Source: Faecalibacterium sp.
GTDB lineage: Bacteria; Bacillota; Clostridia; Oscillospirales; Ruminococcaceae
Assembly: GCA_022652735.1 (NCBI GenBank)
Contig: JALCRP010000006.1
Coordinates: 1-64,000 of the forward strand
Length of the DNA: 64,000 nt
Direction: 5' to 3'
In this document: in pieces, positions 1,666-33,219 of the stretch
Position numbering within the stretch: the first letter of the stretch is position 1
Layout of the letters: every line of letters starts with the position of its first letter
Translations under genes and position numbers: made by a program
The notes under the pieces: model-generated
The model's input: only the letters and a program-made list of their open reading frames with translations
Told to the model about the DNA's origin: nothing
The model's database searches: none

Positions 1666-1694
1666 ATTGCGGCGAAATATACACAAGGGAGGGC

Positions 1695-6037: not shown

Positions 6038-6146
6038 TTTATTGTCCTCCCAATATTTATTAAAATCTTCTATTAGTTTTTCCACGATCTCTTTAGGAAA
6101 ACCTTCAGGTTGATTTTGATCAAGAAGTAACTGTAGAAAATTCTTA

Positions 6147-8296: not shown

Positions 8297-8436
8297 TGCC
8301 TGCTACGATACTACGGATAATTATACCGAGCAAAGTTCCTGCGCTCGCATTCGCCGCACGCACATCGACAAGCTAGCGCCGGTAAACAGGAACTATTATT
8401 TCGTCGTTATATTACGCTGAGTCAATATAAAGAAAC

Positions 8437-9180
8437 TTAGTTATTGATCGTGACGCTTCTTCCTGTGTAGAACGGATTTTTTCTGACCTCAAGGGAGTAG
8501 AGATAGGGATATTCCGTGTGCAGATGTCTCATGTATTCGACCCATTGAATGAGCATAGTCTTAAAGGCCCTTTGAATGTCGTTGGAAAGGTGTGCCATGT
8601 CCGCCTTGCTGTCATCTTTAAATCCATCTCTGGCTAGCAATTCTTCTGTAAGATGAAAAACGGCAAGAAGCATATCTGTAAAAGTATCGTGCTCAAGTAG
8701 GTTTGGGTTTTCAATCATCCGAATCAAAAAAGTTCTCTTACTCTCCATGAGCACTTTTAAGGTCTCAAGCTGTTCCGCGCTGCACTCAATTTGTATATCT
8801 GCATTTTCAAGATATCTCACAGCTTTTGAAAACATATTGTCAGTCCAGTCGGCCTGAACATTCAATTTTATGCTAATATCGTTGCAATTTTTGCTGAAGA
8901 CTTTAAGACCTGTGAGTATATCTGTTCCGGCTTCACTGAAAAACGTGTTAACGACAACACTTATTTTTTTAAGTCTCTCGGTTTTTTCACGGCTTTTTAG
9001 GTATCTGCCGAGTACCACCGTAACAATGGCTACCTGCAGCGGGAGAAAGGCGAAATCCTGTAAAATATAAAAACCTGTGTCGCGCGGAGAATCAAAAACC
9101 ATGATTTGGACCGCATATATAAGCACCGAAAGCAGGGCCAAAAGCAAGACTATAAGAAAACTCGACTTCAGTTTTTTCAT
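8437..9180 (-). CDS. Conserved two-helix membrane protein, function unknown
   Basis: 247 residues. Two hydrophobic helices at about 6-24 and 38-60 are followed by a ~185-residue, mainly helical soluble part with no motif I recognise. The start at 9180 overlaps the stop of the preceding frame (ATGA), which suggests translational coupling to a gene whose 5' part has been replaced by an IS3 fragment. AT-rich, unlike the core chromosome. 8297-8436, downstream, shows no gene or clear terminator. Confidence 0.7.
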   Translation of the reverse strand: MKKLKSSFLIVLLLALLSVLIYAVQIMVFDSPRDTGFYILQDFAFLPLQVAIVTVVLGRYLKSREKTERLKKISVVVNTFFSEAGTDILTGLKVFSKNCNDISIKLNVQADWTDNMFSKAVRYLENADIQIECSAEQLETLKVLMESKRTFLIRMIENPNLLEHDTFTDMLLAVFHLTEELLARDGFKDDSKADMAHLSNDIQRAFKTMLIQWVEYMRHLHTEYPYLYSLEVRKNPFYTGRSVTINN

Positions 9181-9500
9181 ATCGTATCCCCTCTGCCAAT
9201 ATATAAACTCATCAGCAAACTTTTCACAAAGATAGAAATCTCACCGCCAAAGTTATTCATTACAAATCTATCATCATCGTGTAGGGTTGCTTTCTCTATT
9301 TCATATTTGTACTGAATAATCAGATTTTCGCCACCGAAAGTAAACGCTTTGCCGTTTCTAGCCCTGTACGAATTAAGCCAATTATATATGGTGTTCTCGT
9401 GCAAATCCAATTCAATGCTTATTTGCGAGACTTTTTCGCCGCCTTCAATTATTCTCTTGCAGACCTGTCCTTTAAATTCCGGGCTGTACACTTTTCCCAT
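9177..9500 (-). pseudogene. IS3-type OrfA helix-turn-helix fused to the tail of another gene
   Basis: The first ~60 of 107 residues (MGKVYSPEFKGQVCKRI, then SIELDLHENTIYNWLNSY) are the HTH_Tnp_1 domain of IS3-family OrfA. The rest (from about IIQYKYEIEKATLHDD) does not resemble OrfA and has no leucine zipper. No OrfB integrase follows. The tail is translationally coupled to the membrane protein at 8437 and is probably the C-terminus of its original upstream partner. An IS3-type end lies 46 bp before the start, as in an intact element. Confidence 0.75.
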
Positions 9501-9545
9501 TTCGTCACCATAAACCTTTCATCCTATTTTACTTGATGTTTATGG

Positions 9546-9570
9546 TGTCCGTCAAACCCGGTATGGGTCA
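9546..9570. repeat. IS3-type terminal inverted repeat, copy 2
   Basis: Read leftward it is TGACCCATACCGGGTTTGAC plus GGACA, placed upstream of orfA where the left end belongs. The stretch 9541-9572 matches 7871-7902 at 29 of 32 positions in the same orientation. Confidence 0.78.
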
Positions 9571-9608
9571 TTAATACCTTTTTTCTGTGTTTAGATTTTT
9601 CTGTTTTC

Positions 9609-10577
9609 CTAAAAGCGATTTGTATTAGCTTTTTCTCGTTTATTTAAATACATTTTTTTATCTGCGTCATTAATATGTTCTGCAATATTCAGCATGGAGT
9701 CAACGGGAGTTATTCCATACGAAAAATCTATATTAAATTGAAACTGGGTTTGTTTCGAAAGCTCAGTTTTTATTCTATCAATAATTTTTGCTGCAATATT
9801 ATTTTCTTTGTCGTTTCCATCTCTTCTTAAGATAATTAAAAACTCATCTCCGCCGTACCTTATAACTAAGTCGTCATCTCTGATTGATTTTTTAATTGCC
9901 GAAACAATGGTTTTTAAAACATCATCCCCAATAACGTGCCCATATGTATCATTAATCTTTTTAAAACTATCTATGTCAATTAGAATCAGTATTCCTTTTT
10001 CATGGGGGTGGCTATTTATGAAGTCATGTAAAAACAGTCTCGAGTAAGCTCCGGTCAAAGCATCTTTATCTGCGTGTTCTTTATAGTTATCTCGTGCTAA
10101 AGATAATTCTTTAATTTGCCTCTTTGCATGCTTAACAAGAAAAATATAGAAAATCAGCAGTAATATACCGTAGCCTGCTATGATTAATAATGCGCTCCTT
10201 TTTGTCAGCCTATCTCTGGTTTTAAAAACATCAGTCTTTAACTGATATACAATAATACTACTTTCTTGGTCAACTGGTTCTGAATAATAGACATTCGATT
10301 TATCTTCATAAATACAATTGAAGTTTGCCAGCTTGTTTTTGCTGATTTCTATGTCAGATAACTCGATTGTCATACTAGTATTGCTATTAAGCGCTTCAAT
10401 AGTCCCATTTGTAAATGGTAAGATAAAGTACACACTTTTCAGCCAATAGAACTGCACAGTTTTTCGACACATAAAGTGCACAGTTTTTCGCCAAGACTGC
10501 ACAACCTCCGAGGAGTTGGTAAAATGAAGCCAGCCGAAACGGAGGTGGCGAGAAATGAAGGGGTATCGTGTGTACAA
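9609..10577 (-). CDS. Diguanylate cyclase, 5' end replaced by an IS21 end
   Basis: 322-codon frame. The native protein starts near codon 52: an extracytoplasmic remnant, one membrane helix at about 127-148 (SALLIIAGYGILLLIFYIFL) and a GGDEF domain at about 170-315. The motif YGGDEF (~243) is intact, with an RxxD inhibitory site (RDDD) five residues before it, so c-di-GMP synthesis is possible. The first ~50 codons are translated from IS21 end repeats (10424-10505), so the original N-terminal signal sequence and sensor part are lost. The first native Met is at 10373. Whether it is expressed is unknown. AT-rich. Confidence 0.85.
   Translation of the reverse strand: MYTRYPFISRHLRFGWLHFTNSSEVVQSWRKTVHFMCRKTVQFYWLKSVYFILPFTNGTIEALNSNTSMTIELSDIEISKNKLANFNCIYEDKSNVYYSEPVDQESSIIVYQLKTDVFKTRDRLTKRSALLIIAGYGILLLIFYIFLVKHAKRQIKELSLARDNYKEHADKDALTGAYSRLFLHDFINSHPHEKGILILIDIDSFKKINDTYGHVIGDDVLKTIVSAIKKSIRDDDLVIRYGGDEFLIILRRDGNDKENNIAAKIIDRIKTELSKQTQFQFNIDFSYGITPVDSMLNIAEHINDADKKMYLNKREKANTNRF
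10424..10505. repeat. IS21 left-end repeats
   Basis: Four spaced copies of a motif close to A[AG][CT][TG][GA]CACA[GC]TTTTTC: AAGTACACACTTTTC, AACTGCACAGTTTTTC, AAGTGCACAGTTTTTC and GACTGCACAACC. They lie just upstream of an istA start and mark the left end of a fourth IS21 insertion, into the 5' part of the diguanylate cyclase gene. Confidence 0.72.
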
Positions 10578-10640
10578 TTCTATTCAACAATTAAAAGACA
10601 TGGGCTTTAAGCGAGCTGCCGTGGCGGCACAGCTTCAAAA
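10555..10640 (+). pseudogene. IS21 istA, extreme N-terminal fragment
   Basis: ATG at 10555 after a GGAGGTGG box; MKGYRVYNSIQQLKDMGFKR and the following AAVAAQLQ are the start of an IS21 transposase helix-turn-helix. After about 28 residues the sequence becomes the 3' end of the opposite-strand LPD28-like gene, so everything else has been deleted. The junction is at about 10638. Confidence 0.8.
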
Positions 10641-11016
10641 GTCCCGCCTCATCGGGAGAGGCGGGACGCAGAATGAATTTTCGGTTATCCTCGGGGTAAT
10701 TGAGTCCGCGCACCTCGCAGAACTCTCGGAGGGAAAGATGGTAGGCGTCGGCGAAATCCAGCTGGCCGTTCAGCCGCTTGAAGCCCTCCTTGGGAAATGA
10801 GATCGGCTCGTGGGTCAGGATGGTTCCGGCATGGTTGACCACCACGCTCGGCTCCACCGTCACCGGCTCAACCGGGTCATAGTCGCTGCCTCGCAGGTCG
10901 TAGGCGTACCAGCCCTCCGGCACGGTATCCCGGTCAATGCGTGCGTTGGTGAACAGTCCGGGTTTTCCGAATAGTTCGATGTATTCATATTCTTCGGTAA
11001 ATGCGTTGACGCTCAT
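10591..11016 (-). pseudogene. LPD28-like integrative-element protein, 3' end altered
   Basis: Begins MSVNAFTEEYEYIEL; the ATG at 11016 is preferred because AAGGAG lies nine bases upstream (another ATG at 11022 is too close). The sequence GLFTNARIDRDTVPEGWYAY, then RGSDYDP, resembles the large polyvalent protein domain LPD28 / YodL-like proteins found in clostridial conjugative elements; their function is unknown. The last ~14 codons (from KLCRHGSS) come from the antisense of the istA fragment, so the natural C-terminus is missing or barely clipped. It is probably the leftmost survivor of the module at 12.1-15.3 kb. Confidence 0.6.
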
Positions 11017-11300
11017 GGGCATCGTCTCCTTTCTGATTTTACAGCTACACAAGATACCACAGTGTGGCGAGGATAGCTACCTTTTGTCTGATTGCCAATG
11101 CGGGAAGCGGATGGTATAATCGGAATAGTTTTAGATGTTACTTACTTTGCAATAGGCGTATGTGGCGAAGTATGCAGCGGTTGAACTAATCAGAATTTAC
11201 TCAAAGAAGTTGTGTCAAGAAGCACTCTACGGTTCGTTGATTGTAATTCTTTTTCCTCATGCTATACTTTAAACATCAAATAGTCGAGGAGATGCACATC
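11017..11300 (+). promoter_or_regulatory. Promoters for the chloramphenicol acetyltransferase gene
   Basis: Two sigma-A-like promoters face right. Near one: TTGTAA (11241-11246), 16 bp, TATACT (11263-11268) with an extended TG, ending 32 bp before the cat start. Farther one: TTGCCA (11092-11097), 17 bp, TATAAT (11115-11120). A GAGGAG ribosome site is at 11286-11291. The far promoter may be a remnant of another transcript. Confidence 0.65.
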
Positions 11301-11972
11301 ATGCAGGAACTAAACACAACCTTTCATCCTATTAATTTTGAAACATGGGAAAGACGGCAATATTTTTATTACTTTACCAAGATGCTTCCGACAGGGTACT
11401 CACTTACCGTCGAAATTGATATCACTGAAACACGCAAAGCTGCCAAAGAACGAGGCATCCCGTTTATGGCCGCCTATCTATATGTGGTAAGTCGGCAACT
11501 GTCCGCACAGCCGGAAATGCGAATCTCCACACTGGACGACCAACTTGGTACCTTTGATGTTTTGCATCCGTCCTATGCGGTATTCCATGACGACGACAAG
11601 ACCATTTCTAATATGTGGACAGAGTATTCTCCCTCTTTCATCTCATTTCTGGCACAGTATCTAAACGACCGCACGCTCTATGCCGAAAATCACGGACCCA
11701 GTGCAAAGCCTATTGCGCCGCCCCCCAATCTTTGCATGGTGGGTATGCTGCCGTGGGTTAGTTTTACTCACTATTCGCCGGTGCCTTATCAACAAAGCGA
11801 CTGCTATTTTCCAGTTATTGAAGCCGGAAAGTTTTTTGAGCAGAATGGGCGCACACTGATGCCATTATCTGTTATGGCACAGCACGCTGTTGCTGATGGG
11901 TATCACACTTCCACCTTGTTCAATGGAATCCAAGCAGCATTTCTTTCGCCGCAAGAATGGATTGACCAATAA
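11301..11972 (+). CDS. cat: Chloramphenicol O-acetyltransferase (type A)
   Basis: 223-residue trimeric enzyme of the classical CatA family that transfers acetyl from acetyl-CoA to chloramphenicol. Seen: family blocks HPSYAVFHDDDKTIS and LPWVSFTHYSPV, and the catalytic site QHAVADGYH, where the His before AVxDG is the catalytic base; Asp and the second His are kept. The usual HH is QH and the usual Cys is Ala, neither essential. The ATG at 11301 is preferred over 11292 because GAGGAG lies nine bases upstream. It has its own promoter and terminator, and interrupts the integrative-element module, so it was probably added as a cassette. Confidence 0.92.
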   Translation: MQELNTTFHPINFETWERRQYFYYFTKMLPTGYSLTVEIDITETRKAAKERGIPFMAAYLYVVSRQLSAQPEMRISTLDDQLGTFDVLHPSYAVFHDDDKTISNMWTEYSPSFISFLAQYLNDRTLYAENHGPSAKPIAPPPNLCMVGMLPWVSFTHYSPVPYQQSDCYFPVIEAGKFFEQNGRTLMPLSVMAQHAVADGYHTSTLFNGIQAAFLSPQEWIDQ

Positions 11973-12066
11973 CACGCGCCTAATTAGAAACTCACTCCGC
12001 CTTCTTGCTCTGAGACGAACCTACTGGCTTCCCACTTGTGGGGTAGGTTATCGGACATAAAATATG

Positions 12067-12102
12067 CCGCAGACAGATATGGTTTTGTCTGCGGTATTTT
12101 TA
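12067..12102 (+). terminator. Rho-independent terminator after cat
   Basis: Perfect 9-bp stem CCGCAGACA/TGTCTGCGG with a 10-nt loop, followed by TATTTTTA. It ends against the stop of the leftward ArdA-like gene and may also halt that transcript weakly. Confidence 0.8.
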
Positions 12103-13134
12103 TCAGCACAGTTCCATCCCACCCATGCCTTGCGTCTCAATGGGCGCGTCCAGTCGTCGGATCTGCCCGAATTGGGTGTGGAATCCGTCATCCGCCTGAC
12201 TGCTGGGAATCATCTCATAGTTGCCGATATTCCTTGCGATTTGCAGTGCGCCGTCAAAGGTATCCGGCTGCTCCAGCTCCACTGCGGCAAGATATTTGAG
12301 CAACTCGCCGTCTGTCTGATTCATCTGCACAATTGCCTGCGCCAGCGCGTTGGCGCTCTCCACGGTGATGCAGTCCTGCGGCACCATAGTCGCAAAGTAT
12401 GGGAAGATATAATCAACCATCGTGATCTCGGCTTCCGCAAAGTCCTCAATGCCAAGCCGCTGTCTTGCGCGCTCCAACAGTTCATCGGCTGCGGGCAGCG
12501 CCAGCGTGGTAAAAATGGGATTTTGCTGCTTGCCATGGGATGCGCGGAGGCGCAGCAGCATAACGCTTTTTTGTTCCTGCCCCGTCTGTAAGAATTGCTG
12601 CGGCAGTTCCTCTTTTCGCACCACATACCCGGCGCGGCAGAAGGCCCCGCCGTGGTCAGCATAAAACTCCGCACCGATGATCTGGTAATCCAGATAGGGC
12701 TGAACGCTTTCGGGAAAGGGCGTTATGCCATGGGTCACCAGATATTTGCCGAGGGCGCTGCCCCCGCCCGCGTCCGGCAAAAGAATGTATTCATCCAGCG
12801 CTTCAGACAGCCGCAGGACATCGTTAAGGCCATTCACGCTGTTGGCGTCCAACACGCCCTCAAATTTCAGGCAGGAATCCCGATCCATGGTCTGGAGCGT
12901 CCGCCCAAGGGTTTCAAGTTTTTCTCGGTTATCTGGATTCCATATATCCACATTTTTGAGATAACCGCCAAGATTGTAGACATTGCTGCTGACCTCCGCA
13001 ATCTCAATTTTATCGACCCTCGGATTCTGGTAAAGCACCTCCAACAGTGTTTTACTGTTCTCAGTCGTAGAGAAGGGAAACCTTAATCGGAATCCTTCAT
13101 CCACGCCGACGTAAGCCAAGGAAATCGTAATCAT
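12103..13134 (-). CDS. ArdA-like antirestriction domain protein (second of pair)
   Basis: 343 residues, acidic. It carries two copies of an ArdA-like helical signature, a Leu-rich LETLGRTLQTM... unit ending in LSEALDEYILLP (about 72-120) and NALAQAIVQMN... ending in IARNIGNYEMIP (about 270-312). ArdA proteins mimic DNA and block type I restriction enzymes when a mobile element enters a cell; the family link here is by motif only. The start overlaps the stop of the preceding gene (ATGA), giving a coupled pair with 13131-14315. No restriction genes are nearby. Confidence 0.6.
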   Translation of the reverse strand: MITISLAYVGVDEGFRLRFPFSTTENSKTLLEVLYQNPRVDKIEIAEVSSNVYNLGGYLKNVDIWNPDNREKLETLGRTLQTMDRDSCLKFEGVLDANSVNGLNDVLRLSEALDEYILLPDAGGGSALGKYLVTHGITPFPESVQPYLDYQIIGAEFYADHGGAFCRAGYVVRKEELPQQFLQTGQEQKSVMLLRLRASHGKQQNPIFTTLALPAADELLERARQRLGIEDFAEAEITMVDYIFPYFATMVPQDCITVESANALAQAIVQMNQTDGELLKYLAAVELEQPDTFDGALQIARNIGNYEMIPSSQADDGFHTQFGQIRRLDAPIETQGMGGMELC

Positions 13135-14315
13135 TCCATCCCTCCCATCTGTGGGCTCATATTTTCAGCAGGATCGCCCTGCATCAGCTCGTCGAGGCTC
13201 AGCGTTCCTTGATAGGCGATGTAGCCCCGCTGATTGAATACGCCGCCTTCCTGTTCCACGCGTTGGCGGCCGTACTTTTCAAAGTCGTAAAACTCCGCCA
13301 AATTTTCGTCATACTGGAAATGCTCAGACTCCTTAATCATGTACTCCCCATATTCCTTCGGAGAGTGGACACCAAGGACAAAGTCGAACTGATCGAGGTT
13401 TTCGGCAAGCTGCCGCACCTGTGCGGCACACTCCGGCCGCGCCAACAGAACAGCTGCGCCAAGCATGGCGCATTCCAGCGAGCTCAGCGGCGCAACTGCG
13501 CGGCACAGCTCATTCAGGTCGGGCAGATTTTCATTCTCGAAATCCAGTGTGGCGTCGATTTCCTCCGGCAGCTCGCTTTCCATGAATCGCAGGCTCATAT
13601 CTCCGTAGCTGTCAATGCCTGCGCGGAGCATGGCGCGCTCAATTTGGGATTGGGACATGGGAAGATAGAGGTACGCGGCAGGGCTGTCGACGGGAGCAAA
13701 GCGTAAGGACATTTCCACCTCCATCACACAATCCTCGTAGTGATATTCAGGGAAGCGCCGCCCGTCATACAGCTCCGTCATCTCAAAATCATTGTCATAT
13801 ACCACGCCGTAGTGCGTGACGCGGCCGACCTGCTGATCCAGCAGATCCAGCGCGATTTTCCCGAAGTCCTTGCCCTGCATTTCTTCCGGAGACGCCGCGC
13901 CGCCGTTCATGGTCAAAAAGTGTCTTCGACCCAGTGTTGCAAGGTCTTTGAAATCTGTGACCACCGTGACTTCCTGGCAGCAGAAGGTCAGGTTGATGAG
14001 TTCTTCAACGCTGTGAAGCTCCATGCAGGAGGCCATGCCCTGAAACTGTGCCTTTTCGTATTCGTCAAAGCTGTCCAGCCGCTTGGCAAGATAGTCCAGC
14101 TCATCGAGATTCGCATTGGTCATCTCCATCTGCTTGAGCGCCGGGAAATCTCCGCGCAATTCTTCAATGTGACAGTCCTGTTTCACCGCATCCCCGATCC
14201 CCAGAGGCTCCAACAGCGCGAGAATGTGATCATATTCGTCCTTGCCGATGGGAAATGGCACAGTGGCAACACCGTACTCCGAGTGCTGCTTATTGGACAA
14301 TACTGCTTGGATCAT
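13131..14315 (-). CDS. ArdA-like antirestriction domain protein (first of pair)
   Basis: 394 residues, strongly acidic. ArdA-like repeats: LDELDYLAKRLDSFDEYEKA with the following LINLTFCC (about 62-112), and LNELCRAVAPLSS with RQLAENLDQFDFVLG (about 270-320). It shares this plan with the downstream 343-residue protein, suggesting duplication. GGAGGTATTGAA precedes the ATG at 14315, which overlaps the stop of the 64-residue gene. Such genes are common cargo of Tn916/Tn1549-like elements. The antirestriction role is inferred from the family. Confidence 0.62.
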   Translation of the reverse strand: MIQAVLSNKQHSEYGVATVPFPIGKDEYDHILALLEPLGIGDAVKQDCHIEELRGDFPALKQMEMTNANLDELDYLAKRLDSFDEYEKAQFQGMASCMELHSVEELINLTFCCQEVTVVTDFKDLATLGRRHFLTMNGGAASPEEMQGKDFGKIALDLLDQQVGRVTHYGVVYDNDFEMTELYDGRRFPEYHYEDCVMEVEMSLRFAPVDSPAAYLYLPMSQSQIERAMLRAGIDSYGDMSLRFMESELPEEIDATLDFENENLPDLNELCRAVAPLSSLECAMLGAAVLLARPECAAQVRQLAENLDQFDFVLGVHSPKEYGEYMIKESEHFQYDENLAEFYDFEKYGRQRVEQEGGVFNQRGYIAYQGTLSLDELMQGDPAENMSPQMGGME

Positions 14316-15595: not shown

Positions 15596-15671
15596 TGGTC
15601 CGAGTGACAGGGTTCGAACCTGCGGCCTGATGGTCCCAAACCACCCGCGCTACCAACTGCGCTACACCCGG
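15596..15671 (-). tRNA. tRNA-Pro (anticodon TGG)
   Basis: 76 nt with encoded CCA. Acceptor CCGGGTG/CACTCGG plus discriminator A; D-stem GCGC/GCGC; anticodon stem GGTGG/CCATC with loop TTTGGGA (TGG); T-arm GCAGG TTCGAAC CCTGT. All four arms fold. A TACAAT box lies about 9 bp upstream. The mobile module lies on its 3' side, the usual side for tRNA-targeted integration. Confidence 0.96.
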
Positions 15672-23297: not shown

Positions 23298-23903
23298 TCA
23301 TATATTTTTTGGGCCTGTCTCAGCATCCTCCGGCATAAAGCCGTTTTCCGCCCACATTACCAAGAACATCTGCACACGGCCCGTCACAGCCCCACCGCGC
23401 GCAATCCGCGCGGCCTCGGCGCGTTTTACCCACACAGGCTCGATTTCCTCGGCCGGGGCGTGCTCGCCGCCGAAAGGCTGCGTGTCGTCGGCCTGCCCGA
23501 AAAAAACAGCCGATACCTCGTTGCTGATCCCGATCGCGCCGTAAGAGCACCCATAGCAGGCCAGGCAAGCCGAAAGCGTCAGGCCTGTCTCCTCGGCAAG
23601 CTCGCGCGCCGCAGCCGCGGGAAGGCTTTCGCCCGGCTCCGGCATGCCGGCCGGAAAATTGTACACCACACGGTTTACCGCGGGGCGAAACTCTCGGTTA
23701 AGCAGCACCCGCGTTTTGCTTTGGTTCAAAATCACGAGCACCACGCCCTCCGGCGCAGCGCCGGAAAGCTCCTCTGCGGCCAAAACGGGGCGGCGGCTTA
23801 CCATCTCGTATACCTTTTCGTGCCCGTCCGCCATTTCATAATGCAGATCATACCGCCGCAGAAAACGGCCCTCCCCTTTTGGCTCGCAGCGCAAAAATTT
23901 CAT
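23298..23903 (-). CDS. Nudix hydrolase
   Basis: 201 residues. A complete Nudix box G-x5-E-x7-RELAEETGL spans about 90-112 (starts GMPEPGESLP). It hydrolyses a nucleoside-diphosphate-linked compound; the ADP-ribose pyrophosphatase type is plausible from the N-terminal layout, but the substrate cannot be read. The start overlaps the stop of the UPF0597 gene (ATGA), so the two are translationally coupled. Confidence 0.88.
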   Translation of the reverse strand: MKFLRCEPKGEGRFLRRYDLHYEMADGHEKVYEMVSRRPVLAAEELSGAAPEGVVLVILNQSKTRVLLNREFRPAVNRVVYNFPAGMPEPGESLPAAAARELAEETGLTLSACLACYGCSYGAIGISNEVSAVFFGQADDTQPFGGEHAPAEEIEPVWVKRAEAARIARGGAVTGRVQMFLVMWAENGFMPEDAETGPKNI

Positions 23904-25189
23904 GCTTTCGTCTCCTCTGCGGCCGTGTCCAGCATTAAATGGATGATTTCCTGATCCGTCTGGCGCATTCCCTCGTGCGCCAGAAGCCCGACATTCCGGA
24001 TGGTGTTCTCCACGCCTTTTGTCACGATGCCGTCGCCGCCGCGGAACTGGCTGCCGTGCTGATACATCTGCATCCCCAGAAGCCCCGCCTCGACGGCAGA
24101 AGCGATTTTAGCCGCGCAGCTTGCTTTTGCGCCGTCGCAGATCATGCCGGAATTGATCGCCAGCGCGTTAACAACCGTATGCGCAACTTCGCGATAGCCT
24201 CCGCCGTACAGGTACGTCACGCCCGCGCCCGCCCCGGCGCCTGCGCTGGTGGCGCCGCAATAAGCCGAAAGGCAGCCAATGCCCGTTTTTAAGTGGATGG
24301 CAACCAGATTCGACACGCACAGCGCGCGGTACAGCTTTTCTTCCGAAATGTGCAGCTCTTTGGCATATACGATCACGGGCATCGACACAGTAAGCCCCTG
24401 ATTGCCGCTGCCGGAATTGATGACGACGGGCAGCTCGCAGCCGTTCATCCGTGCATCCGACCCAGCCGCCGCCATCGCTTTGGCGCGGTTTTGCACGCTG
24501 TCGCCGTAGGATTGCAGCAAAATACGGCCGATGCCCGCGCCCCATACGCGGCGCAGGCCTTCCTCGGCGATTGCGGTATTATAGGCAATCTGGCGCCCGA
24601 TGGTTTCGCGGATGTCGTCGAGCTTCACGCAATCGGCAAAGGCGACGATCTGCTCCACGTTCAGCTTTTCATGGCCGTTTCCCGCCGTGCCGCCCTCGGC
24701 ATAGGCGCGGTGATACAGCGAAACGCCGTCTTTTTCCATGTCGACGATATTGGTATGGAAGCCGCTGATGCGCACACTTGCGCAATGGGTGCCGGAATGC
24801 ACCGTCACTTTTAAGTCGAATACACAGCGCGATTGCAGTTCTTCCACGGTGATCGGCGTTTTTTGCAGGTAAGCCGCGATCTGCGTTACCTCGGCGGGGC
24901 TTACGGCGGAGATCACTTCCAGTTCTTTGTCTTCGTCGCCCGCGATGATGCCCGCGGCGGCCGCGGCCGCGATGCCCTTTAAGCCGCCCGTGTGCGGCAC
25001 AATCACGCTCTTTACATTTTTCACGATATTGCCGGAGGCCGCCACCGTAACCACCTCGGGCAGCGCGCCCAGCGCGGCGCGCGCTTTGGCCGCCGCATAC
25101 GCCACGGCAATCGGCTCGGTGCAGCCCATCGCGGGGACAAGCTCCTCCCGCAGAATTTCGAGATAAGCCTGATATAAGCTATTTTCCAT
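23900..25189 (-). CDS. UPF0597 / L-cysteine desulfidase-like (serine dehydratase alpha family)
   Basis: 429 residues from ATG 25189, which follows TATGGAGGTTTT. Matches the YhaM/CdsB family: Cys in AMGCTEPIAVAYAAA (about 24), INSGSGNQGLTVSMPV, GCLSAYCGATSAGAGAGAG and NVGLLAHEGM. In archaeal CdsB the N-terminal Cys and an Fe-S cluster break L-cysteine to pyruvate, ammonia and sulfide; that activity is inferred here. Several Cys that could hold a cluster are present (GMICDGAKASC, GIGCLSAYC). Coupled downstream to the Nudix hydrolase. Confidence 0.87.
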   Translation of the reverse strand: MENSLYQAYLEILREELVPAMGCTEPIAVAYAAAKARAALGALPEVVTVAASGNIVKNVKSVIVPHTGGLKGIAAAAAAGIIAGDEDKELEVISAVSPAEVTQIAAYLQKTPITVEELQSRCVFDLKVTVHSGTHCASVRISGFHTNIVDMEKDGVSLYHRAYAEGGTAGNGHEKLNVEQIVAFADCVKLDDIRETIGRQIAYNTAIAEEGLRRVWGAGIGRILLQSYGDSVQNRAKAMAAAGSDARMNGCELPVVINSGSGNQGLTVSMPVIVYAKELHISEEKLYRALCVSNLVAIHLKTGIGCLSAYCGATSAGAGAGAGVTYLYGGGYREVAHTVVNALAINSGMICDGAKASCAAKIASAVEAGLLGMQMYQHGSQFRGGDGIVTKGVENTIRNVGLLAHEGMRQTDQEIIHLMLDTAAEETKA

Positions 25190-25221
25190 AAAACCTCCAT
25201 ACCCGGGCAAAAATGGGCAGT

Positions 25222-28200
25222 TTACCTGCCGCTGCGGCCGTTTTTCAAAAATCGGATTATTTTTTCGTACAGCACGGCAGGCTGGATAGGCTTCGGGATC
25301 AGCTCGTCAATGCCGGCCGCATAGGTATTCTCTTGATCCTCAGGGAAGGCATTTGCCGAAATCGAAAGTACCGGCGTCAGCGCGGCATCCCGGCGCGGCA
25401 AAGCGCGGATCGCGCGCGTCGCGGCAAGGCCATCCATCACGGGCATGCGAATGTCCATCAACACTACCGCATAATAACCTTCCGGCGAGGCCGCGTATGC
25501 TTCCAGCGCCGTTTTGCCGTTTTCGGCACAATCTACCAGCATCTTTTGCTTTTGCAGCAAAGCCTTGCCAATATCCAGATTGATGCGGTTATCATCTACC
25601 AGCAGGACATGCTTGCCGGCCAAAAGCGCCATATCCTCTTGGGGGAGGGCAAAGCTGTTTTCTGCCGAAGAATGCGGCGTGTGGCACAGCGCAAGCGTAA
25701 GCTCTACCGTAAAGGTAGTGCCCTTGCCGAGCACGCTCTCCACACGGATAGTGCCCTCCATACGGTCGATGATCCGCTTTGCAATCGCAAGCCCGATACC
25801 GGCGCCGGCTGTCTCTCCGTCCTCCTGCATATGCTCGCGGGTAAAAGGCTCGAACAAATGCTGCTGGAAATCTTCGGCCATGCCGATGCCGTTATCGGCA
25901 ACCACGGCGCAGATGCGCACCTGCTCCGGCGTGTACTCGATTTCCCGGATAGAAAAGCGGACGCAGCCGCCCTCGGGCGTAAATTTCACCGCATTGGACA
26001 ACAAATTAAAGAACACTTGCTGGAACCGCACCAAATCGACCATAACTTCCGCCTGCGTGCTTTTTCCTTCCAGATGTGCCCATTCCAGAGAAATATGCTT
26101 TTGCTCGCACTGTGGGCGAATCAAAAGCTCCAGCTGGGCAAGCAGCATCGGCAAACGGCAGGGCGTCTTTTTTAGCCGAATGCTCTCGCTCTGCAAGCCG
26201 GACATATCCAGCAGATCATTGATCTGGCGCAGCAAAAGCCCGCTGGAAGCCGCCACTTGCCGCATAGCCTTGCGCACAAATTCCTCGTCCTGTGCGCGGT
26301 CAGCGGTAAGTTCTGTCAGGCCGATGATTGCATTCATCGGGGTACGCATTTCGTGGCTGATGCTTGCGAGAAACTCCGTCTTCGCGCGGGAAGCCTCCTG
26401 CGCCTGCTGCAAAGCCCAGCGCAGCTGTTTTTGCTGGCGATCCTGCTGTTCCAGCAGCGTGGTAACATCCGTGCGCGCCAGAATAATCGCGGTATGGCTG
26501 GCGTCCAGATACAAAAAGCTCCATTGCTTACGGAAGTGTTTTTTGTCCTTTTCGACGGTAAATGAGACAGAATAGGCGTTTTCACTTTTCAAACAGGCGC
26601 AGATCGTTTCCATGCTGAAGGCCTGCTGTGCAGCCGTGCGCTCCTCGGCGGGAATAAAGGTGCGGACAAAGCTTTCGGACGCTGCCTGATACAGCATTTC
26701 CATCCCGCAGTGCATTTGCTCCTCAAAATCCGTATGGCGGTAGCAGTGCAAAAACCCTGTCTGCACATCCACCACGCCCAGTAGCTCGAAATGCAGCTCG
26801 GCAATTCGGTCGATCGTTGCCTGCATGGTTTTTTTCTCGTTTACATCGTAGGAATAAATAAATGCTTTGATGTCGCCGCTTTCCGGATCCTTAAAGGTTT
26901 TCAGGATGGTTCTGGCCCAAAAAGCCCGGCCTGTACTGTCTTTGCGGCGATACTCAAGTTCTTTGTAGTTTTTGCCCTCAGCAAAATCGTTGAGGATATT
27001 TTCGCGGTCGAGCAGCTTGTGCAACGCGGCGCGCTCCTTCGGAGAATCGCCGTGCGCAGCAATATTTTGCAGCACTTGCTCGCCGCTTTCTTCAGAATGC
27101 TTTGCATAGCGGTAGCCAAGCACGTCACAGCTTTCCACCTTTTTCCGGGTGAGATTGTAGCGCGCTTTTGCGATCATATTCTCGTCCTGCGCGGCTTCCA
27201 AATAGTGCATTTCTTCGCGGAAGCGGTGCAGCTCTGCGCTGCGCCGGCGCTGTTCTTCTTCCTCCGCGGCCTTCTTTTCGGTAATATCATTGCATATCCC
27301 GCAGAATTGAAGGTTGCCGTCCGGGGTTTCCATCGGGGCCGCCAAAAATTCGATCCAGCGGCACCCGCCCTCCTGCGGCAGGGTGCGGAAAATGCAGTGA
27401 AGCGGCTGCCTATGGCCGATCCCTTGCTGCAATGCGGCAGAGATCCTTGGCCGGTCTTCGGTGCAGGCATAGCGCTCGATGCAGGCCAGCACATCGTCGC
27501 TCACGTTTTCGTCCCGTAAATATTCCAGCAAGCTGCCCATGCCCTCGCTGTGGAACTTGCGCAGCAGGCGGCCGCCCTCCACGCCATACAGCGCCACGCC
27601 ACCGGGCAAATGCTGAATCAGCGTTTCCATCTGCATCTGGGCCGCCTTGATTTCGGTGACGTCATTATAGATGGTGAGGTAAATTTCCTGATTGCCGGGG
27701 TCTACAGTACGGCGCACAACGCCGTTCAGCCAGCGAATCTTGTCGTTGGAGAGAATGCGAACCTCAAACGCCTGCGGTTTATCCAAGGTGCGGGCATTTT
27801 TCCATGTTTTGGCCAAGCGTGCACGGTCCTCCGGCAGAACTTTAGTATAAAGCTCTACGCTTTGCGCCAGCGCGCTTTCGCCAAGCATCAGGCGCCCGGC
27901 GCGGTTCATAAAAGTAAAGTTCCAGTTGGCGTCCAGCTCGCTTACGCCGCAGGGCAGCAGATCATACAGCGTTTCAAGGTAGGCCGTCTGCCGCCGGCTA
28001 GCCGCCAGCGCGCCGGCCCAATCTTTGATGTTGGAACAAATCAAATACGCCATCTGGCTGCCGTCGGGCTGCACAAGCGAGATGCCCTCGCACAGCAGCC
28101 ACACATAGCGGCGCGTATTGCAGTTGAGGATGCGGCACTCAAATTTTGTGCTGTGGTTTTCCGAGAAAAGCTTTTCGAGCGCCGTATCCACAAGCGAGCC

Positions 28201-31200
28201 ATCGTCCGGATGCAAAAGGCCATGCACCTCGGCCGGGCTTGCGCCCGGCACGGCATCGCAAAGGCAGCCGATACTGTGGCAAAGCGTTTCATTTGCCGCA
28301 GCCATCGCCCACTTCCCTGCGCGGTAAGAAAGCGTGGCAATGCCCGTGGGCAGCGCCCGCAGCAGGCCTTCCACTTTGCCGTGCTGATCGGAAAGGGCCT
28401 CGGTGCGCCGTCTCTCCGTTTGCAATTCCTGTTCCAGTGCCTTGCGACGGTCGATGTCGACGATCACCACCACAAACCAGCTGCGGCCATTTTCATCCGT
28501 AACACGGTGGCCGGCATCGTACACCCATTTCAGCTCTCCGCTGCGCGTCTCGATGCGATACTCGCAGGTATCAAAATCGTCTTTGCAGATCTGTTCGCGG
28601 ATTTCGCGGCATACGCGGTCCCGATCAGCCTGATAAATCATATCCGGGAAACGGTTATGGAAACGCTGCAAAAATTCCTCGCGGGTATAGCCCAGCATCT
28701 CCAGCATATTATCCGACACATAGGAGAACTGCTGATCGTCCTCGGCAGAATATTTGAAAATGCCGCCCGGGATCAAATGGATCATAGCCGACGCTTCCTG
28801 TCGGCGCGTATCGGCGGCCTGCCGTATCCGTACCTGCTCCGAGACATCCATCAGCGCCATACAGCAAACAAGCCCGTCCGGCTTTTTCTCGTAGTGGCAA
28901 GCCACCCGCAGCCAAAAACGGCTTCCGTCTTTCCGGGTAACCTGCACACACGGCGCGCTGCTTGTCTGCGGCGTATTTTCGGCGGCGATGGCCGCCAGCT
29001 CCGGCGGGAAGCCGCAGCCATCCCCGTTGGCGGCGGCAAGCGCGTATTCCTTGTGCGTAAAGCCAAACATTTCGCAGGCGTGGTCGTTGGCAAACTGTGG
29101 CTGCTGGGGGCTGCTGCTGTGGTACACCAAAATACCGCCCGGCAGGCTGAGAAGCGTCTCGCGCAGGCCCGCCGCGCTTTTTTCGGCTGTGTGCCGCGCC
29201 CGTACCGCATCGTCGACATCCACAAGGGTGCCGATCGCGCGCAAAATCTTGCCTGCTTTATCGCGGACAAATTCGCCCGCCATCCGCGTCCAGCGGTAGC
29301 CGCCGCCCTGCACTTTTAAGCGCAGCTCGCATTCGGTATGCGGCGCGCCGGCACCCGCCATTTGGAAGAAAGCGGCCAGCTGCGGGCGATCCTCGGCATA
29401 AACGTTTTCTGGGTCTCCCTCATTTTTGCACAGCTTTTGCGGCGATTCCATCGCCAGCGCATATCGGCTGAACGATTCGGACGCATAAAAGCGACCGGTT
29501 TGGAAGTTCCATTCCAGCACGGCGCAGTCTGTATGCTCCACAATAATACGGTAACGCTCTTTTTCTTCCGTTTCCTCCCGCAGGATCGTGTTATCGGCTT
29601 GCAGGCGCTCCAGCTCTTTTTCCGGCCCGGCATCTGCATGAGGCAGCGCAAGGGCGCCCTGCTGCATTTTTTGCCGCAGGGCACAAAGGCTGCCGGCCAG
29701 CCGATATACCTTGTGCCCGGCCTGTGCGGCCGCCTGCCGAGGCAGGCCGTTTTGCCGCACAAGCTGCGCGGCATGCTTTTCATCGGTAATGTCACGGTTG
29801 CACAGCAGATAACAGGAGCCGCCCACATGCAGCAATGTGCTGGAAACCCAGCGTTCTTCTCCCTGCGCCGTGCGGCAACGATATTCCAAGGTGCCCGGCT
29901 TCTCGCCGGCTTTTGTAAAGTCCAAAAAGCTGACGAGTGCGGCGCGATCTTTTTCGGCGGCAAGGCCGGCCGCCGTCTCTTCCAGATAGCGCGCGATTGT
30001 AAGCGTCCGGCCGTCGCTTTCCGCGCCGCGCTCGGTGCGGACGATACAGCTGCCCTGCTCGGCATCCAGCTCATAGGTTGCATCATACGCGCCGAGCAGC
30101 GCCCGGCTAAAGCGGCCGCGGTCGGCACGTATTTGATCCGTAACATCGGTAAAGACGATTTGCACCACAACGCGGCCATCCGGCCCCGGCACCTTTTGCA
30201 TCAGCGTATGTACCCAGCGTACGCTGCCATCCGCGCGCAGGATGCGGTGGTCACAGCCAGTCCGCTTGCCCCCGGCAAAAATGTTGTGCAGGTTTTCTTC
30301 CATGAGGGCGCGGTCGTCCGGATGGACGCCGAAAAGCTGGCCGTGCTTTTGCACAGCCGCCAAATATTCCGCCTGCCCGGAAAAGCCGAAAAGACGCCAT
30401 GCAGCATCGTTCAGGCTTGCCAAATGCATGCGGCCCTTTTCGCGGTAAAGCTGCACGATGCCGCACGGAATCGTGCTGTAAAGCTGTTGTAAAAAGGTGC
30501 GTTGCCGCTCCAGCTCGGCGGCCTGACGCGCAGTCAGCTTTTCGCTTTCCACCTTTGCCTGAATGTCCATCAGGATCGCGCTGGCATATACGGTGTCTCC
30601 CGCGTCATGGCGGGAAATACTGCCGGTAATGCTCACCCAGCGCTGGCTGCCGTCCTTGCAGGGGTGGCGGTAGCGCGCGGTCAGCAGGGCAAGCTTGCCG
30701 GATACTACCTGCTCGATTTCGCAGCGCATACGTTCCCGGTCCTCAGGGCAGATGGCCTGCAGGGCATCTGCCGCAAACAGGCGGGCATATTCCTCCCGCG
30801 TATAGCCGAACATTTTAGCCGCTATATCATTGAAGTAGACTGTGGAGATGGCTTCTCCGTGAATTTCAAAGCTGTAAACGGCGCCCGGAAGATTGCGCAT
30901 TACATCAGAGAGCCGATGCGAAAGCTGCTCGTTATGGCGCAGCAGGTTCATGCGCATGGAAATATCGTCGATGGCCATATACAGCAGCTCGCCCGTAGCC
31001 TGCTTGGCCAAAAAGCGCGCGCGTACCCGAAGCCAGCGCTCGCCCTCGCCTTCATGCCGGGGCCGTGTGCTGACTTCGCAGGCCGCCTCCTGCCCGCTTC
31101 GGATCGCCTTCTTCACCATATCAAGAAAAGGCGCATGGCATTCCCACGGCAGCATGTCCAACAGGCTATCGCGGCCTTTTTCGTAATCCTCATAGGAAAG

Positions 31201-33084
31201 ATGCAGAATCTCCAAGAACTTGTCATTTACGCGCAGCGTATGTACTTCGCCGTTTTCATATTCCGCAATCGCCGCGCCGCCCACAAAGCTGTTGAACAGC
31301 AGCGTCGACTGCGTGGTCGCGCTGAGAAAATCCGTCGAGCCGCCGATGCCCGTAGAAAAGCGCAGGTCAGGCCCGGCCAGCGCCGCCCTTTGCAGCAAGG
31401 TACGGTAGCTTTCTTCGTCCATCGGTTTGGCGAACAAATACCCCTGCATATACAAGCAACCGATACTTTTCAGGTAATTTGCCTGCTGCAAAGTTTCTAC
31501 GCCCTCGGCGATTACCGGCAGGCCAATGCCGTGCGCCATGTGTACAACCGCGCTGAGGATGCTGCCGCCACGGGCCTGCTCATTGGAGCTGGAAAGAAAC
31601 CGCATATCCAGCTTGAGCGTATCGACCGCGACATCTTTAAGCATATTAAGCGAGGAATAGCCGCTGCCGAAATCGTCCATTTCCACATGGAAGCCATATC
31701 CCTGCAGCTGATGCACAACGCGCACGAGCTGCTCGGGGTTTTCCATATAAGCCGATTCCGTGATTTCAAGATGCAGCAGCTCCGGCGGGAGATGATACTC
31801 CTCCAGCAGCTTTTGCAGGTTGCCGCAAAGGCTGGCGTGGTAAATATCCTGCCGCGAGATATTGACGGACACCGGCACAGGCCGGATTCCCGCATCCAGC
31901 CAAGCGCGCAGGCAGATGCAGGCCTGCCGCCAGACATATTGATCCAGCGCGCTGATAAAGCCGTTTTCCTCAAAAAGCGGAATAAAACGCCCCGGCGGGA
32001 TCAAGCCCTTGCGCGGGTGGTTCCAGCGCACAAGCGCTTCCGCGCCGGAAAGGGCATGCTCCGCATAGTTATACTGCGGCTGAAAATATACCACAAACTG
32101 CCCCGCCGTAAGGGCGGTACGCGCTTCGTTGCTGATCTCCTGCTCTTCCAGCAGGTTTTGGCGCATTGCTTCGTCGTACCAGCCGCAGCGAGCCTGCGCA
32201 CTGTTTTTGACAGAGCGCAGCGCCAGCATCGCGCGGTCGCACATCAGGGCCGCATCCAAGGTGCGGTCTGTAATTTCATAAACGCCGGCGCGCGTCACAA
32301 ACTCAAAATCCGGGTAAAGCTTTGCCATGTGGGCATCCAGCTGCTCCAGCAACCGATTCGGCTCAAAAGTATCCATCCTGCGCAGCGTTACAAAGCAATC
32401 GGCATGCCAGTGCCCCGCGATCATCACGCCCTGCGCCGGCAAGGCCTCGGTACGGTACACGCGCCCGATTTCAGCCAGCAGCGCATCGCCCGCGGCCATG
32501 CCGTAAATTTCGTTAAAGGCGCGGAAGTGGTCAATATCCCAGCGAAGGATCGCATAGCGGCCCGCAGGGTCTTTTTCCAGCAGCTGCGCCACGTGGCGAC
32601 AAAAAGCGAGCTTATTGTAAAGCCCCGTTTTTTCGTCCGTTTCCATCCGGCGGATTTGCTGCTCGAACATACGGCTGCGCTCAGCAAGATGCTCGGAATC
32701 CATGCGGCGCAGAATATTATTCACGCGATGCTGAATGATCCGGGCCTGATAGGGCTTTGTGATGACATCGGCGGCGCCGTAATCCAGTGCGCGGATCTGC
32801 GTCTCTGCATCTCCGCTGGCCGTCGCCACAATGACCGGGATGCGGCACAGGTTGCTGTCTGCCATCATGGCCTGCAGCACATGATAGCCGTCCATCCGCG
32901 GCATCACGATGTCCAGCAGCACAATATCCACTTTAGCAAGGGTATGCAGCAGCTCCATCGCTTCGGCGCCATCGCGCGCCTCGGCAATTTGATACAGCGA
33001 GCCCAAGATTTTTTTCAGTAAAGTACGGTTCACGCCGGCGTCATCTACAAGCAGAATCGTTTTTTGATTTTCCGCAGATTTCAT
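25222..33084 (-). CDS. Giant REC-GGDEF*-EAL-(PAS)n-HisKA-HATPase-REC hybrid signalling protein
   Basis: About 2620 residues. Order: receiver 8-125 (phospho-Asp in LLDIVMP, ~56); GGDEF fold 150-310 with the motif replaced by GHWHADCF (~228), so cyclase-dead; EAL 325-565 with key residues kept (EALVRWNHP, NISRQD, LEITES, MDDFGSGYSS, AEGVET), so an active c-di-GMP phosphodiesterase is predicted; about 12 PAS-type units of ~130 residues from 600 to 2200; histidine kinase with SISHEMRTP (His ~2244), SNAVKFTP and DNGIGM; C-terminal receiver 2491-2620 (MDIRMP). No membrane helix seen, so probably cytosolic. ATG 33084 follows GAGGGCTTAAGA; a longer frame to 33132 is less likely. Promoter at 33220-33248. 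No HPt domain inside; a REC-HPt protein lies at 56103. Confidence 0.95.
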   Translation of the reverse strand: MKSAENQKTILLVDDAGVNRTLLKKILGSLYQIAEARDGAEAMELLHTLAKVDIVLLDIVMPRMDGYHVLQAMMADSNLCRIPVIVATASGDAETQIRALDYGAADVITKPYQARIIQHRVNNILRRMDSEHLAERSRMFEQQIRRMETDEKTGLYNKLAFCRHVAQLLEKDPAGRYAILRWDIDHFRAFNEIYGMAAGDALLAEIGRVYRTEALPAQGVMIAGHWHADCFVTLRRMDTFEPNRLLEQLDAHMAKLYPDFEFVTRAGVYEITDRTLDAALMCDRAMLALRSVKNSAQARCGWYDEAMRQNLLEEQEISNEARTALTAGQFVVYFQPQYNYAEHALSGAEALVRWNHPRKGLIPPGRFIPLFEENGFISALDQYVWRQACICLRAWLDAGIRPVPVSVNISRQDIYHASLCGNLQKLLEEYHLPPELLHLEITESAYMENPEQLVRVVHQLQGYGFHVEMDDFGSGYSSLNMLKDVAVDTLKLDMRFLSSSNEQARGGSILSAVVHMAHGIGLPVIAEGVETLQQANYLKSIGCLYMQGYLFAKPMDEESYRTLLQRAALAGPDLRFSTGIGGSTDFLSATTQSTLLFNSFVGGAAIAEYENGEVHTLRVNDKFLEILHLSYEDYEKGRDSLLDMLPWECHAPFLDMVKKAIRSGQEAACEVSTRPRHEGEGERWLRVRARFLAKQATGELLYMAIDDISMRMNLLRHNEQLSHRLSDVMRNLPGAVYSFEIHGEAISTVYFNDIAAKMFGYTREEYARLFAADALQAICPEDRERMRCEIEQVVSGKLALLTARYRHPCKDGSQRWVSITGSISRHDAGDTVYASAILMDIQAKVESEKLTARQAAELERQRTFLQQLYSTIPCGIVQLYREKGRMHLASLNDAAWRLFGFSGQAEYLAAVQKHGQLFGVHPDDRALMEENLHNIFAGGKRTGCDHRILRADGSVRWVHTLMQKVPGPDGRVVVQIVFTDVTDQIRADRGRFSRALLGAYDATYELDAEQGSCIVRTERGAESDGRTLTIARYLEETAAGLAAEKDRAALVSFLDFTKAGEKPGTLEYRCRTAQGEERWVSSTLLHVGGSCYLLCNRDITDEKHAAQLVRQNGLPRQAAAQAGHKVYRLAGSLCALRQKMQQGALALPHADAGPEKELERLQADNTILREETEEKERYRIIVEHTDCAVLEWNFQTGRFYASESFSRYALAMESPQKLCKNEGDPENVYAEDRPQLAAFFQMAGAGAPHTECELRLKVQGGGYRWTRMAGEFVRDKAGKILRAIGTLVDVDDAVRARHTAEKSAAGLRETLLSLPGGILVYHSSSPQQPQFANDHACEMFGFTHKEYALAAANGDGCGFPPELAAIAAENTPQTSSAPCVQVTRKDGSRFWLRVACHYEKKPDGLVCCMALMDVSEQVRIRQAADTRRQEASAMIHLIPGGIFKYSAEDDQQFSYVSDNMLEMLGYTREEFLQRFHNRFPDMIYQADRDRVCREIREQICKDDFDTCEYRIETRSGELKWVYDAGHRVTDENGRSWFVVVIVDIDRRKALEQELQTERRRTEALSDQHGKVEGLLRALPTGIATLSYRAGKWAMAAANETLCHSIGCLCDAVPGASPAEVHGLLHPDDGSLVDTALEKLFSENHSTKFECRILNCNTRRYVWLLCEGISLVQPDGSQMAYLICSNIKDWAGALAASRRQTAYLETLYDLLPCGVSELDANWNFTFMNRAGRLMLGESALAQSVELYTKVLPEDRARLAKTWKNARTLDKPQAFEVRILSNDKIRWLNGVVRRTVDPGNQEIYLTIYNDVTEIKAAQMQMETLIQHLPGGVALYGVEGGRLLRKFHSEGMGSLLEYLRDENVSDDVLACIERYACTEDRPRISAALQQGIGHRQPLHCIFRTLPQEGGCRWIEFLAAPMETPDGNLQFCGICNDITEKKAAEEEEQRRRSAELHRFREEMHYLEAAQDENMIAKARYNLTRKKVESCDVLGYRYAKHSEESGEQVLQNIAAHGDSPKERAALHKLLDRENILNDFAEGKNYKELEYRRKDSTGRAFWARTILKTFKDPESGDIKAFIYSYDVNEKKTMQATIDRIAELHFELLGVVDVQTGFLHCYRHTDFEEQMHCGMEMLYQAASESFVRTFIPAEERTAAQQAFSMETICACLKSENAYSVSFTVEKDKKHFRKQWSFLYLDASHTAIILARTDVTTLLEQQDRQQKQLRWALQQAQEASRAKTEFLASISHEMRTPMNAIIGLTELTADRAQDEEFVRKAMRQVAASSGLLLRQINDLLDMSGLQSESIRLKKTPCRLPMLLAQLELLIRPQCEQKHISLEWAHLEGKSTQAEVMVDLVRFQQVFFNLLSNAVKFTPEGGCVRFSIREIEYTPEQVRICAVVADNGIGMAEDFQQHLFEPFTREHMQEDGETAGAGIGLAIAKRIIDRMEGTIRVESVLGKGTTFTVELTLALCHTPHSSAENSFALPQEDMALLAGKHVLLVDDNRINLDIGKALLQKQKMLVDCAENGKTALEAYAASPEGYYAVVLMDIRMPVMDGLAATRAIRALPRRDAALTPVLSISANAFPEDQENTYAAGIDELIPKPIQPAVLYEKIIRFLKNGRSGR

Positions 33085-33219
33085 TCTTAAGCCCTCACAG
33101 CCGCAAATGCCATAATGGATTCGGCAGCACACAAGGCCAAGGGCCGGTGCGCCTTTTGGGGAAATTCATCCGAAAACGCATCTTTTTGAAGTGCTATGGA
33201 TTGCATCCCAGACAATTTT

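Follow-up and report, generated by a model that had tools for sequence, protein, structure and literature searches.

The closest described counterparts of the locus examined here are the Roc, Arr, and Rav systems, which we compare as they are described in the accessible portions of the respective papers. In the Roc system of Pseudomonas (RocS, HptA, and the REC-EAL protein RocR), kinases and an HPt protein feed a receiver that lies ahead of an EAL phosphodiesterase, much as we propose below, and by two-hybrid RocS4 interacts with HptA, and HptA with RocA1, RocA2, and RocR3 (PMC12051241). The Roc components are, however, separate proteins, RocR consists of a receiver and an EAL domain without a GGDEF domain, and there is no array of 12 PAS units (PMC12051241). 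ArrS/ArrR of Aeromonas veronii likewise combines a kinase-REC-HPt protein with a REC-EAL phosphodiesterase, whose activity is inhibited by phosphorylation, but here two proteins are involved, the HPt domain lies inside the kinase, and the sensing domains are periplasmic (PMC11841396). In the RavS/RavA-RavR system of Xanthomonas, an EAL protein with a degenerate GGDEF domain (GSDEM) has a receiver aspartate that is phosphorylated by kinases, without effect on phosphodiesterase activity; in contrast to the protein described here, the GGDEF and EAL domains of RavR are N-terminal with the receiver behind them, and the parts are separate proteins (PMC6707612).

A census of EAL proteins also records EAL domains together with HisKA, HATPase, and Hpt domains in proteins of Caulobacterales and Rhizobiales (PMC9756655). 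These are co-occurrences without domain order, HAMP included, and the order receiver-GGDEF-EAL-PASn-kinase-receiver is not described in the available passages of that paper; the available passages of another make no mention of kinases fused to EAL (PMC5845226). Indeed, the titles, abstract starts, and passages of the openly licensed PMC literature yielded no paper describing this domain order, nor did they turn up already characterized homologs, which the preliminary description of this DNA had named as grounds for abandoning its view. Judged from sequence, the protein described here may be a new variant of the Roc/Arr-type phosphodiesterase relays, namely a Roc-type relay whose kinase and terminal regulator are fused.

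The window, by which we mean the whole 64,000-nucleotide stretch of Faecalibacterium sp. DNA that was analyzed, encodes this giant protein in a single uninterrupted frame at 33084-25222 on the minus strand, as are all of its domains listed below. The gene (25222-33084) comprises 2,620 codons and a stop codon; its ATG at 33084 yields the version of 2,620 residues listed in the protein database, and the frame is open over 2,636 codons (25222-33132), with GTG at 33132 as a possible first start. The order is receiver, degenerate GGDEF, intact EAL, 12 PAS-like units, HisKA/HATPase, and receiver, and Pfam recovers the EAL domain (230 bits), both receivers, HisKA, HATPase_c, GGDEF, and many PAS matches, which confirms the protein of about 2,620 residues and the domain order first read from the letters alone. 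Codon-position GC is constant across the whole frame, and exact 25-mer repeats were not found within the gene. A membrane segment is not apparent either (the maximal 19-residue hydropathy, 1.61, falls within the EAL domain), so the giant protein is probably cytosolic. Directly beyond the gene, on the same strand, lies a frame of the serine-dehydratase-alpha type (23900-25210, minus strand) that may start at a TTG located 11 nt past the giant gene's stop, and co-transcription of the two is possible.

Two database proteins bear on the integrity of this frame. P0135, a protein of 2,410 residues from another assembly, is collinear with the giant over nearly its full length (residues 1-1680, plus 1438-2613 in a shifted register); its units match PAS1-7, PAS10, PAS11, PAS12, HisKA, HATPase, and REC2 with the order kept, but it lacks clear equivalents of PAS8 and PAS9. 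P0230, encoded on a contig of 3,524 bases, aligns with residues 1691-2620 at 69-70% identity (69% over 805 residues) and may be either a piece of another giant or a free kinase. Together, the two span all joints except about 10 linker residues that have no in-register relative, and on these alignments and the steady codon-position GC a chimeric assembly was rejected.

The front half of the protein resembles RocR in several respects. REC1 (32701-33063; Pfam 88 bits) is an N-terminal receiver, as in proteins of the RocR kind, with its acidic pair DD, phospho-accepting D, T, and K present. In the EAL domain (31378-32148), all ten catalytic positions checked, whose roles we take to be as generally assigned, are kept, again as in RocR and as the preliminary description had it. 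Between them, the degenerate GGDEF domain (32164-32637) reads HADCF at the motif, bearing out the altered motif noted earlier as GHWHADCF. With Cys in place of the catalytic Glu, the domain lacks the GG(D/E)EF active site of a diguanylate cyclase and was rejected as a cyclase; its metal- and GTP-side residues are kept, where the roles of these positions are presumably those of PleD. A model of the receiver-GGDEF-EAL part (mean pLDDT 88.6, pTM 0.60) finds its top match in the GGDEF-EAL part of PA0575 with GTP bound, and it also matches RocR, whose structure 3sy8 is recovered both by sequence and by fold.

These features are widely shared. Among 142 front halves, thinned of near-identical copies (21 of about 22 near-identical 1,460-residue proteins were left out), the EAL residues E, R, and N are kept in all 142 and the remaining seven in at least 139, and the metal/GTP-binding positions of the GGDEF domain are kept in 136, 129, 139, and 141. 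The catalytic-Glu position is His in 77 and Asn in 32, against Cys in the giant. The GGDEF domain preceding EAL is degenerate in these proteins, with neither GGDEF nor GGEEF among the 40 commonest motifs of 165 such domains, and the other GGDEF domains of those proteins read GGDEF in 120 of 152 cases. Loss of the catalytic Glu together with retention of the metal/GTP positions suggests a GTP-binding pseudo-cyclase. The phospho-accepting Asp of REC1 is missing in 19 of 120 relatives, and some of the receivers there are therefore not phosphorylated.

The PAS count given earlier, about 12, also stands. The protein was split into 18 units that were scanned separately with Pfam; the 12 PAS units among them, 114-129 residues each, have boundaries set by hand. 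Scanned singly, each of PAS1-10 matches a Pfam PAS family at E <= 0.001. The curated cut-off is passed by PAS2 (30544-30912), PAS3 (30124-30492), PAS5 (29197-29565), PAS7 (28435-28794), and PAS9 (27640-27981), and the matches of PAS1 (30943-31314), PAS4 (29770-30114), PAS6 (28825-29169), PAS8 (28009-28374), and PAS10 (27265-27630) fall below it. PAS11 (26824-27210) has a marginal match (E 0.016), PAS12 (26446-26808) has none when scanned alone, and both are assigned from a predicted structure of PAS11-PAS12-HisKA, in which each shows the PAS strand-helix-strand order and the array runs into the kinase helix. In this model (mean pLDDT 81.6, pTM 0.42) the domains can be trusted and their arrangement cannot; because of that unreliable arrangement, whole-model TM-scores to its top solved matches, tandem-PAS proteins such as DosP and FixL, are low, at about 0.3. 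A recent tandem expansion of the PAS units was considered and rejected, since pairwise identity has a maximum of 28% and a median of 18%.

The chain closes with HisKA (26179-26394; phospho-acceptor motif SHEMRTP), HATPase_c (25696-26055; Pfam), and the second receiver, REC2 (25246-25617; Pfam 75.6 bits). Given its HisKA histidine, HATPase, and C-terminal receiver of the hybrid-kinase class, this end has the makeup of a hybrid histidine kinase, and phospho-acceptor residues are present in both REC1 and REC2, in keeping with the earlier proposal that either end can be phosphorylated. Intermediary and terminal receivers are recognized functional classes and neither class forms one sequence group, according to the available portions of one study (PMC9981736). 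Against profiles of 20 HPt-linked phosphodiesterase receivers and 119 hybrid-kinase receivers, REC1 scores 117.6 vs 65.2 bits (+52), which places it with the phosphodiesterase response regulators adjoining HPt genes, and REC2 scores 48.9 vs 148.7 bits (-100), which places it with the hybrid-kinase class; five other kinase-ended proteins tested give the same sign at both ends. This division into two classes fits a flow from kinase to REC2, HPt, REC1, and EAL, and an HPt step is probably needed between the two receivers; the preliminary description noted neither the two classes nor this step. Another protein of the same genome (contig C1, 927-3467) has the order REC-GGDEF-EAL-PAS-REC, and its last receiver scores with the phosphodiesterase receivers, unlike a hybrid-kinase receiver.

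In some relatives, the parts of such a flow are encoded as separate neighboring genes, and this gene order is the principal new finding here. Ninety-seven regions from genomes of the host family (L106-L122 and L132-L211; L123 was left out) were selected from the listed matches, with matches near contig ends avoided where possible, and one HPt motif was used to scan both gene classes, genes being taken as stop-to-stop frames. An HPt-motif frame starts no more than 600 nt downstream, on the same strand, of 22 of the 47 testable REC-GGDEF-EAL genes and of none of the 44 GGDEF-EAL genes without a receiver (Fisher p 2.4e-8, for loci that are not phylogenetically independent). Upstream, the counts are 2/45 and 0/46, and of the two cases, that of L107 belongs to a neighboring phosphodiesterase gene and that of L170 has a kinase gene on one side and the phosphodiesterase on the other. 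Including one locus that is not among the 47, the 23 HPt loci are spread over 11 genera. Ten of the 29 HPt-motif candidates (two of which are from the giant's own genome) were checked in Pfam; nine exceed the HPt cut-off and one stands at 24.5 against 24.6.

At some loci the kinase completes the set. In 11 of 51 loci, from seven genera (L140, L114, L150, L152, L153, L162, L163, and L165-L168), the phosphodiesterase, HPt, and hybrid kinase genes follow one another on the same strand, an arrangement first seen in L140 and L114; two further loci of the 51 have the order phosphodiesterase, kinase, HPt, and one, L170, has kinase, HPt, phosphodiesterase. L140, with frames of 578 codons (REC-GGDEF-EAL), 124 codons (HPt), and 1,607 codons (PASx7-HK-REC), is a split counterpart of the giant, and in L144 a REC-GGDEF-EAL gene is followed by PASx2-HK-REC with a gap of 23 nt if the first ATG is used. 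In the kinase-end tree, kinases other than those of L140 and L144 stand closest to the giant's kinase, and these two loci thus show the arrangement rather than a direct ancestor. A hybrid kinase lies directly downstream on the same strand in 6/47 REC-GGDEF-EAL genes vs 0/44 without a receiver (p 0.027) and upstream in 0/45 vs 1/46, by a test that required a frame gap below 300 nt and so missed many clusters with an HPt gene between phosphodiesterase and kinase. On the other hand, 12 of the 23 loci with HPt behind the phosphodiesterase have no kinase gene following on that strand within the stretch analyzed, and the motif scan found no HPt-motif gene in 21 named loci, seven of them with REC-GGDEF-EAL. 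HPt adjacency is also a property of short REC-GGDEF-EAL genes (20 of 30 testable) more than of long multi-domain genes (2 of 17), which the giant resembles more. Where it occurs, the set of REC-GGDEF-EAL, HPt, and hybrid kinase genes apparently forms a relay ending in a c-di-GMP phosphodiesterase.

No HPt gene adjoins the giant gene. RocR-kind proteins have an HPt and kinase partner at the locus; here, the kinase is in cis. HPt and kinase partner genes are encoded elsewhere in some Roc systems. The giant's own genome has four HPt matches, comprising a CheA-like protein, two free-standing genes on contigs C9 and C1, and one REC-HPt protein. The two free-standing genes are 45% and 41% identical to HPt genes found behind REC-GGDEF-EAL-type genes, and by this resemblance a trans partner is available; the gene on C1 has no two-component neighbor among the two adjacent genes scanned. 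The window itself encodes a separate REC and HPt-like protein of 401 residues (56103-57308, minus strand; HPt 31.4 bits in the genome search, 24.4 against a cut-off of 24.6 in the protein scan), which is a possible but weak candidate for the trans partner. Elsewhere in this genome, at an end of contig C24, a CheA-like gene, recognized by eye, lies one gene from that of an EAL/HDOD protein, a hint that the organism has genes for motility or chemotaxis.

Since some relatives encode the phosphodiesterase, HPt, and kinase parts as neighboring genes, the giant is likely such a relay mostly fused into one chain, and the particular route to which we incline, with modest confidence, leads from the kinase to the last receiver, a separate HPt, the first receiver, and control of EAL. 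The PAS array would sense cytosolic signals and gate the kinase, whose histidine would pass phosphate to REC2; from there, phosphate would travel by way of a separate HPt protein, perhaps the product of one of the two free-standing genes on C9 and C1, to REC1. The state of REC1 would then set the rate of c-di-GMP breakdown by EAL, either up or down, and the degenerate GGDEF domain may add an allosteric input by binding GTP. That c-di-GMP breakdown is coupled to a phosphorelay, as suggested in the preliminary description, finds support in the relatives' HPt-containing gene clusters. As for c-di-GMP receptors, PilZ proteins were not found in the giant's own genome (5 of 14 control genomes were positive), and a c-di-GMP-I riboswitch gave no match there, the control genomes being likewise silent.

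The giant belongs to a large family. We annotated 226 distinct homologs, namely the best 120 of 668 and the best 120 of 1,854 with overlaps removed (a further listing holds the best 120 of 972 proteins), and architecture counts are accordingly lower bounds; annotation used profiles built from the giant protein itself, which detect 11 of its own 12 PAS units, so that PAS counts run low. EAL and kinase are both present in at least 19 of the 226. The preliminary description knew of no described protein with this domain order, but the order is not unique, as at least five of the 226, the giant included, have exactly REC-GGDEF-EAL-PASn-HK-REC (P0002, P0135, P0137, P0142, and P0213), and P0010 departs from it solely by a second end receiver. 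The commonest end in the large family sharing the giant's front half is GGDEF, usually canonical, in REC-GGDEF-EAL-PASn-GGDEF proteins (at least 49 of 226). A match at E <= 1e-40 occurs in 26 of the 31 genomes of the genus. Among the up to 10 candidates scored per genome, however, a full-length match is confined to the giant's own genome, and those listed for the others cover the EAL part or else the kinase part; likewise, among up to two candidates scored in each of 197 sampled genomes of the family, its own genome alone shows a match along the full length.

The two ends of the giant have different nearest relatives. REC-degenerate GGDEF-EAL-PASn-GGDEF proteins such as P0003 and P0130 have a front half like the giant's but end in GGDEF (followed by one PAS in P0130 and P0150), where the giant has kinase and receiver. 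In the GGDEF-EAL tree, P0003 is the protein with the highest identity to the giant (61%); it also has PAS1-6 in unchanged order, although further units are inserted between PAS4 and PAS5. In a tree of 143 GGDEF-EAL parts, from which 20 of about 22 near-identical 1,460-residue proteins were left out, the rows nearest by path are P0130 and P0150 (support 94). Conversely, the giant's kinase end groups with free-standing kinases, one of them on contig C9 of its own genome (support 98 in the kinase-end tree; a four-row clade at 97/96 in a second tree), and it is 37% identical to that PAS-HK-REC protein over 834 columns. A front nearest to GGDEF-ended proteins and a kinase end nearest to free-standing kinases indicate that the far end was probably swapped; the terminal GGDEF of a GGDEF-ended c-di-GMP chassis was likely replaced by a PAS-PAS-kinase-receiver module resembling the C9 kinase. 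Kinase-ended rows are scattered over the tree, with 13 kinase/no-kinase changes for 17 rows, which may be too many given that 58 of 140 inner branches are weak. The kinase of P0135 falls outside the giant's kinase clade, although a common origin, with a single swap shared by P0002 and P0135, is neither shown nor rejected (AU p 0.07). A kinase has probably replaced the terminal output more than once in the family. It is tempting to speculate further that the first and last relay stations, the sensor array, and the second-messenger enzyme form one molecule and the HPt alone is free, closing a loop between both ends of a chain whose far end is an exchangeable socket, filled several times by cyclase or kinase; this we regard as plausible, at somewhat less than an even chance.

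Among competing readings, the best survivor, still an unlikely one, is that the giant joins two independent devices, with REC1-GGDEF-EAL under another kinase and PAS-kinase-REC2 feeding a different pathway, so that fusion merely co-localizes the two or lets them share the PAS array. The absence of an HPt gene beside the giant gene is consistent with this, as are the 16 HisKA matches in the genome and the GGDEF-ended siblings, whose chain includes REC1 but no kinase and whose REC1 would need a foreign one. A single relay is, however, what the two receiver classes fit, and in some relatives the genes for phosphodiesterase, HPt, and hybrid kinase adjoin one another. We consider it rather less probable that the flow is reversed, with EAL as a c-di-GMP-sensing trigger that acts via the PAS array on a far-end output (GGDEF in siblings, a kinase here). 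This reading would suit a far output that is exchangeable behind a constant GGDEF-EAL part, and in Xanthomonas c-di-GMP acts on the kinase RavS and is removed by the EAL protein RavR, as the accessible text of that study describes (PMC6707612). Yet the conservation of EAL catalytic positions in nearly all of the 142 relatives speaks for turnover rather than binding alone, and the HPt clusters point to REC1 as the end of a relay.

A direct transfer from the kinase to REC1, in cis or inside a dimer and with no HPt involved, in which REC2 serves as a sink or brake, seems more doubtful again. It would explain why no HPt gene adjoins the giant gene, and at L117, L134, and L144 a phosphodiesterase gene is followed by a kinase gene with no HPt-motif gene within the stretch analyzed; an HPt gene nevertheless stands behind the phosphodiesterase in 22 of the 47 relatives' genes, and a hybrid-class receiver beside a kinase, as REC2 is, is normally the first to take the phosphate. 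Finally, the giant is known from a single assembly, is listed just once by the protein database at 90% identity (one member, one contig), and finds a full-length match in one of 31 genomes of its genus, but the frameshift or assembly error fusing two genes that the preliminary description had contemplated is extremely improbable in view of the P0135 and P0230 alignments and the steady codon-position GC.

The window holds other putative c-di-GMP genes. A low-GC stretch at 2-12 kb (0.38-0.47, vs about 0.53-0.62 elsewhere) encodes an IstB-like ATPase and an rve integrase together with two GGDEF proteins, one of the PAS-GGDEF-HD type (2614-5256) and the other at 9609-10577, and a member of the chloramphenicol-acetyltransferase family (11259-11972). 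Next come an ArdA-like protein and a weak match to ArdA, and a tRNA-Pro lies nearby (15596-15671). The region as a whole (1608-14315) looks like a mobile island with c-di-GMP genes.

Returning to the favored reading, a relay mostly fused into one chain, what appeared to be a curious architecture would become a testable circuit of kinase, HPt, and c-di-GMP phosphodiesterase. REC-GGDEF-EAL, HPt, and hybrid kinase genes would, in this light, recur as a set across a large family of probable Clostridia; the family's chassis may carry either a diguanylate cyclase or a kinase at its output end.
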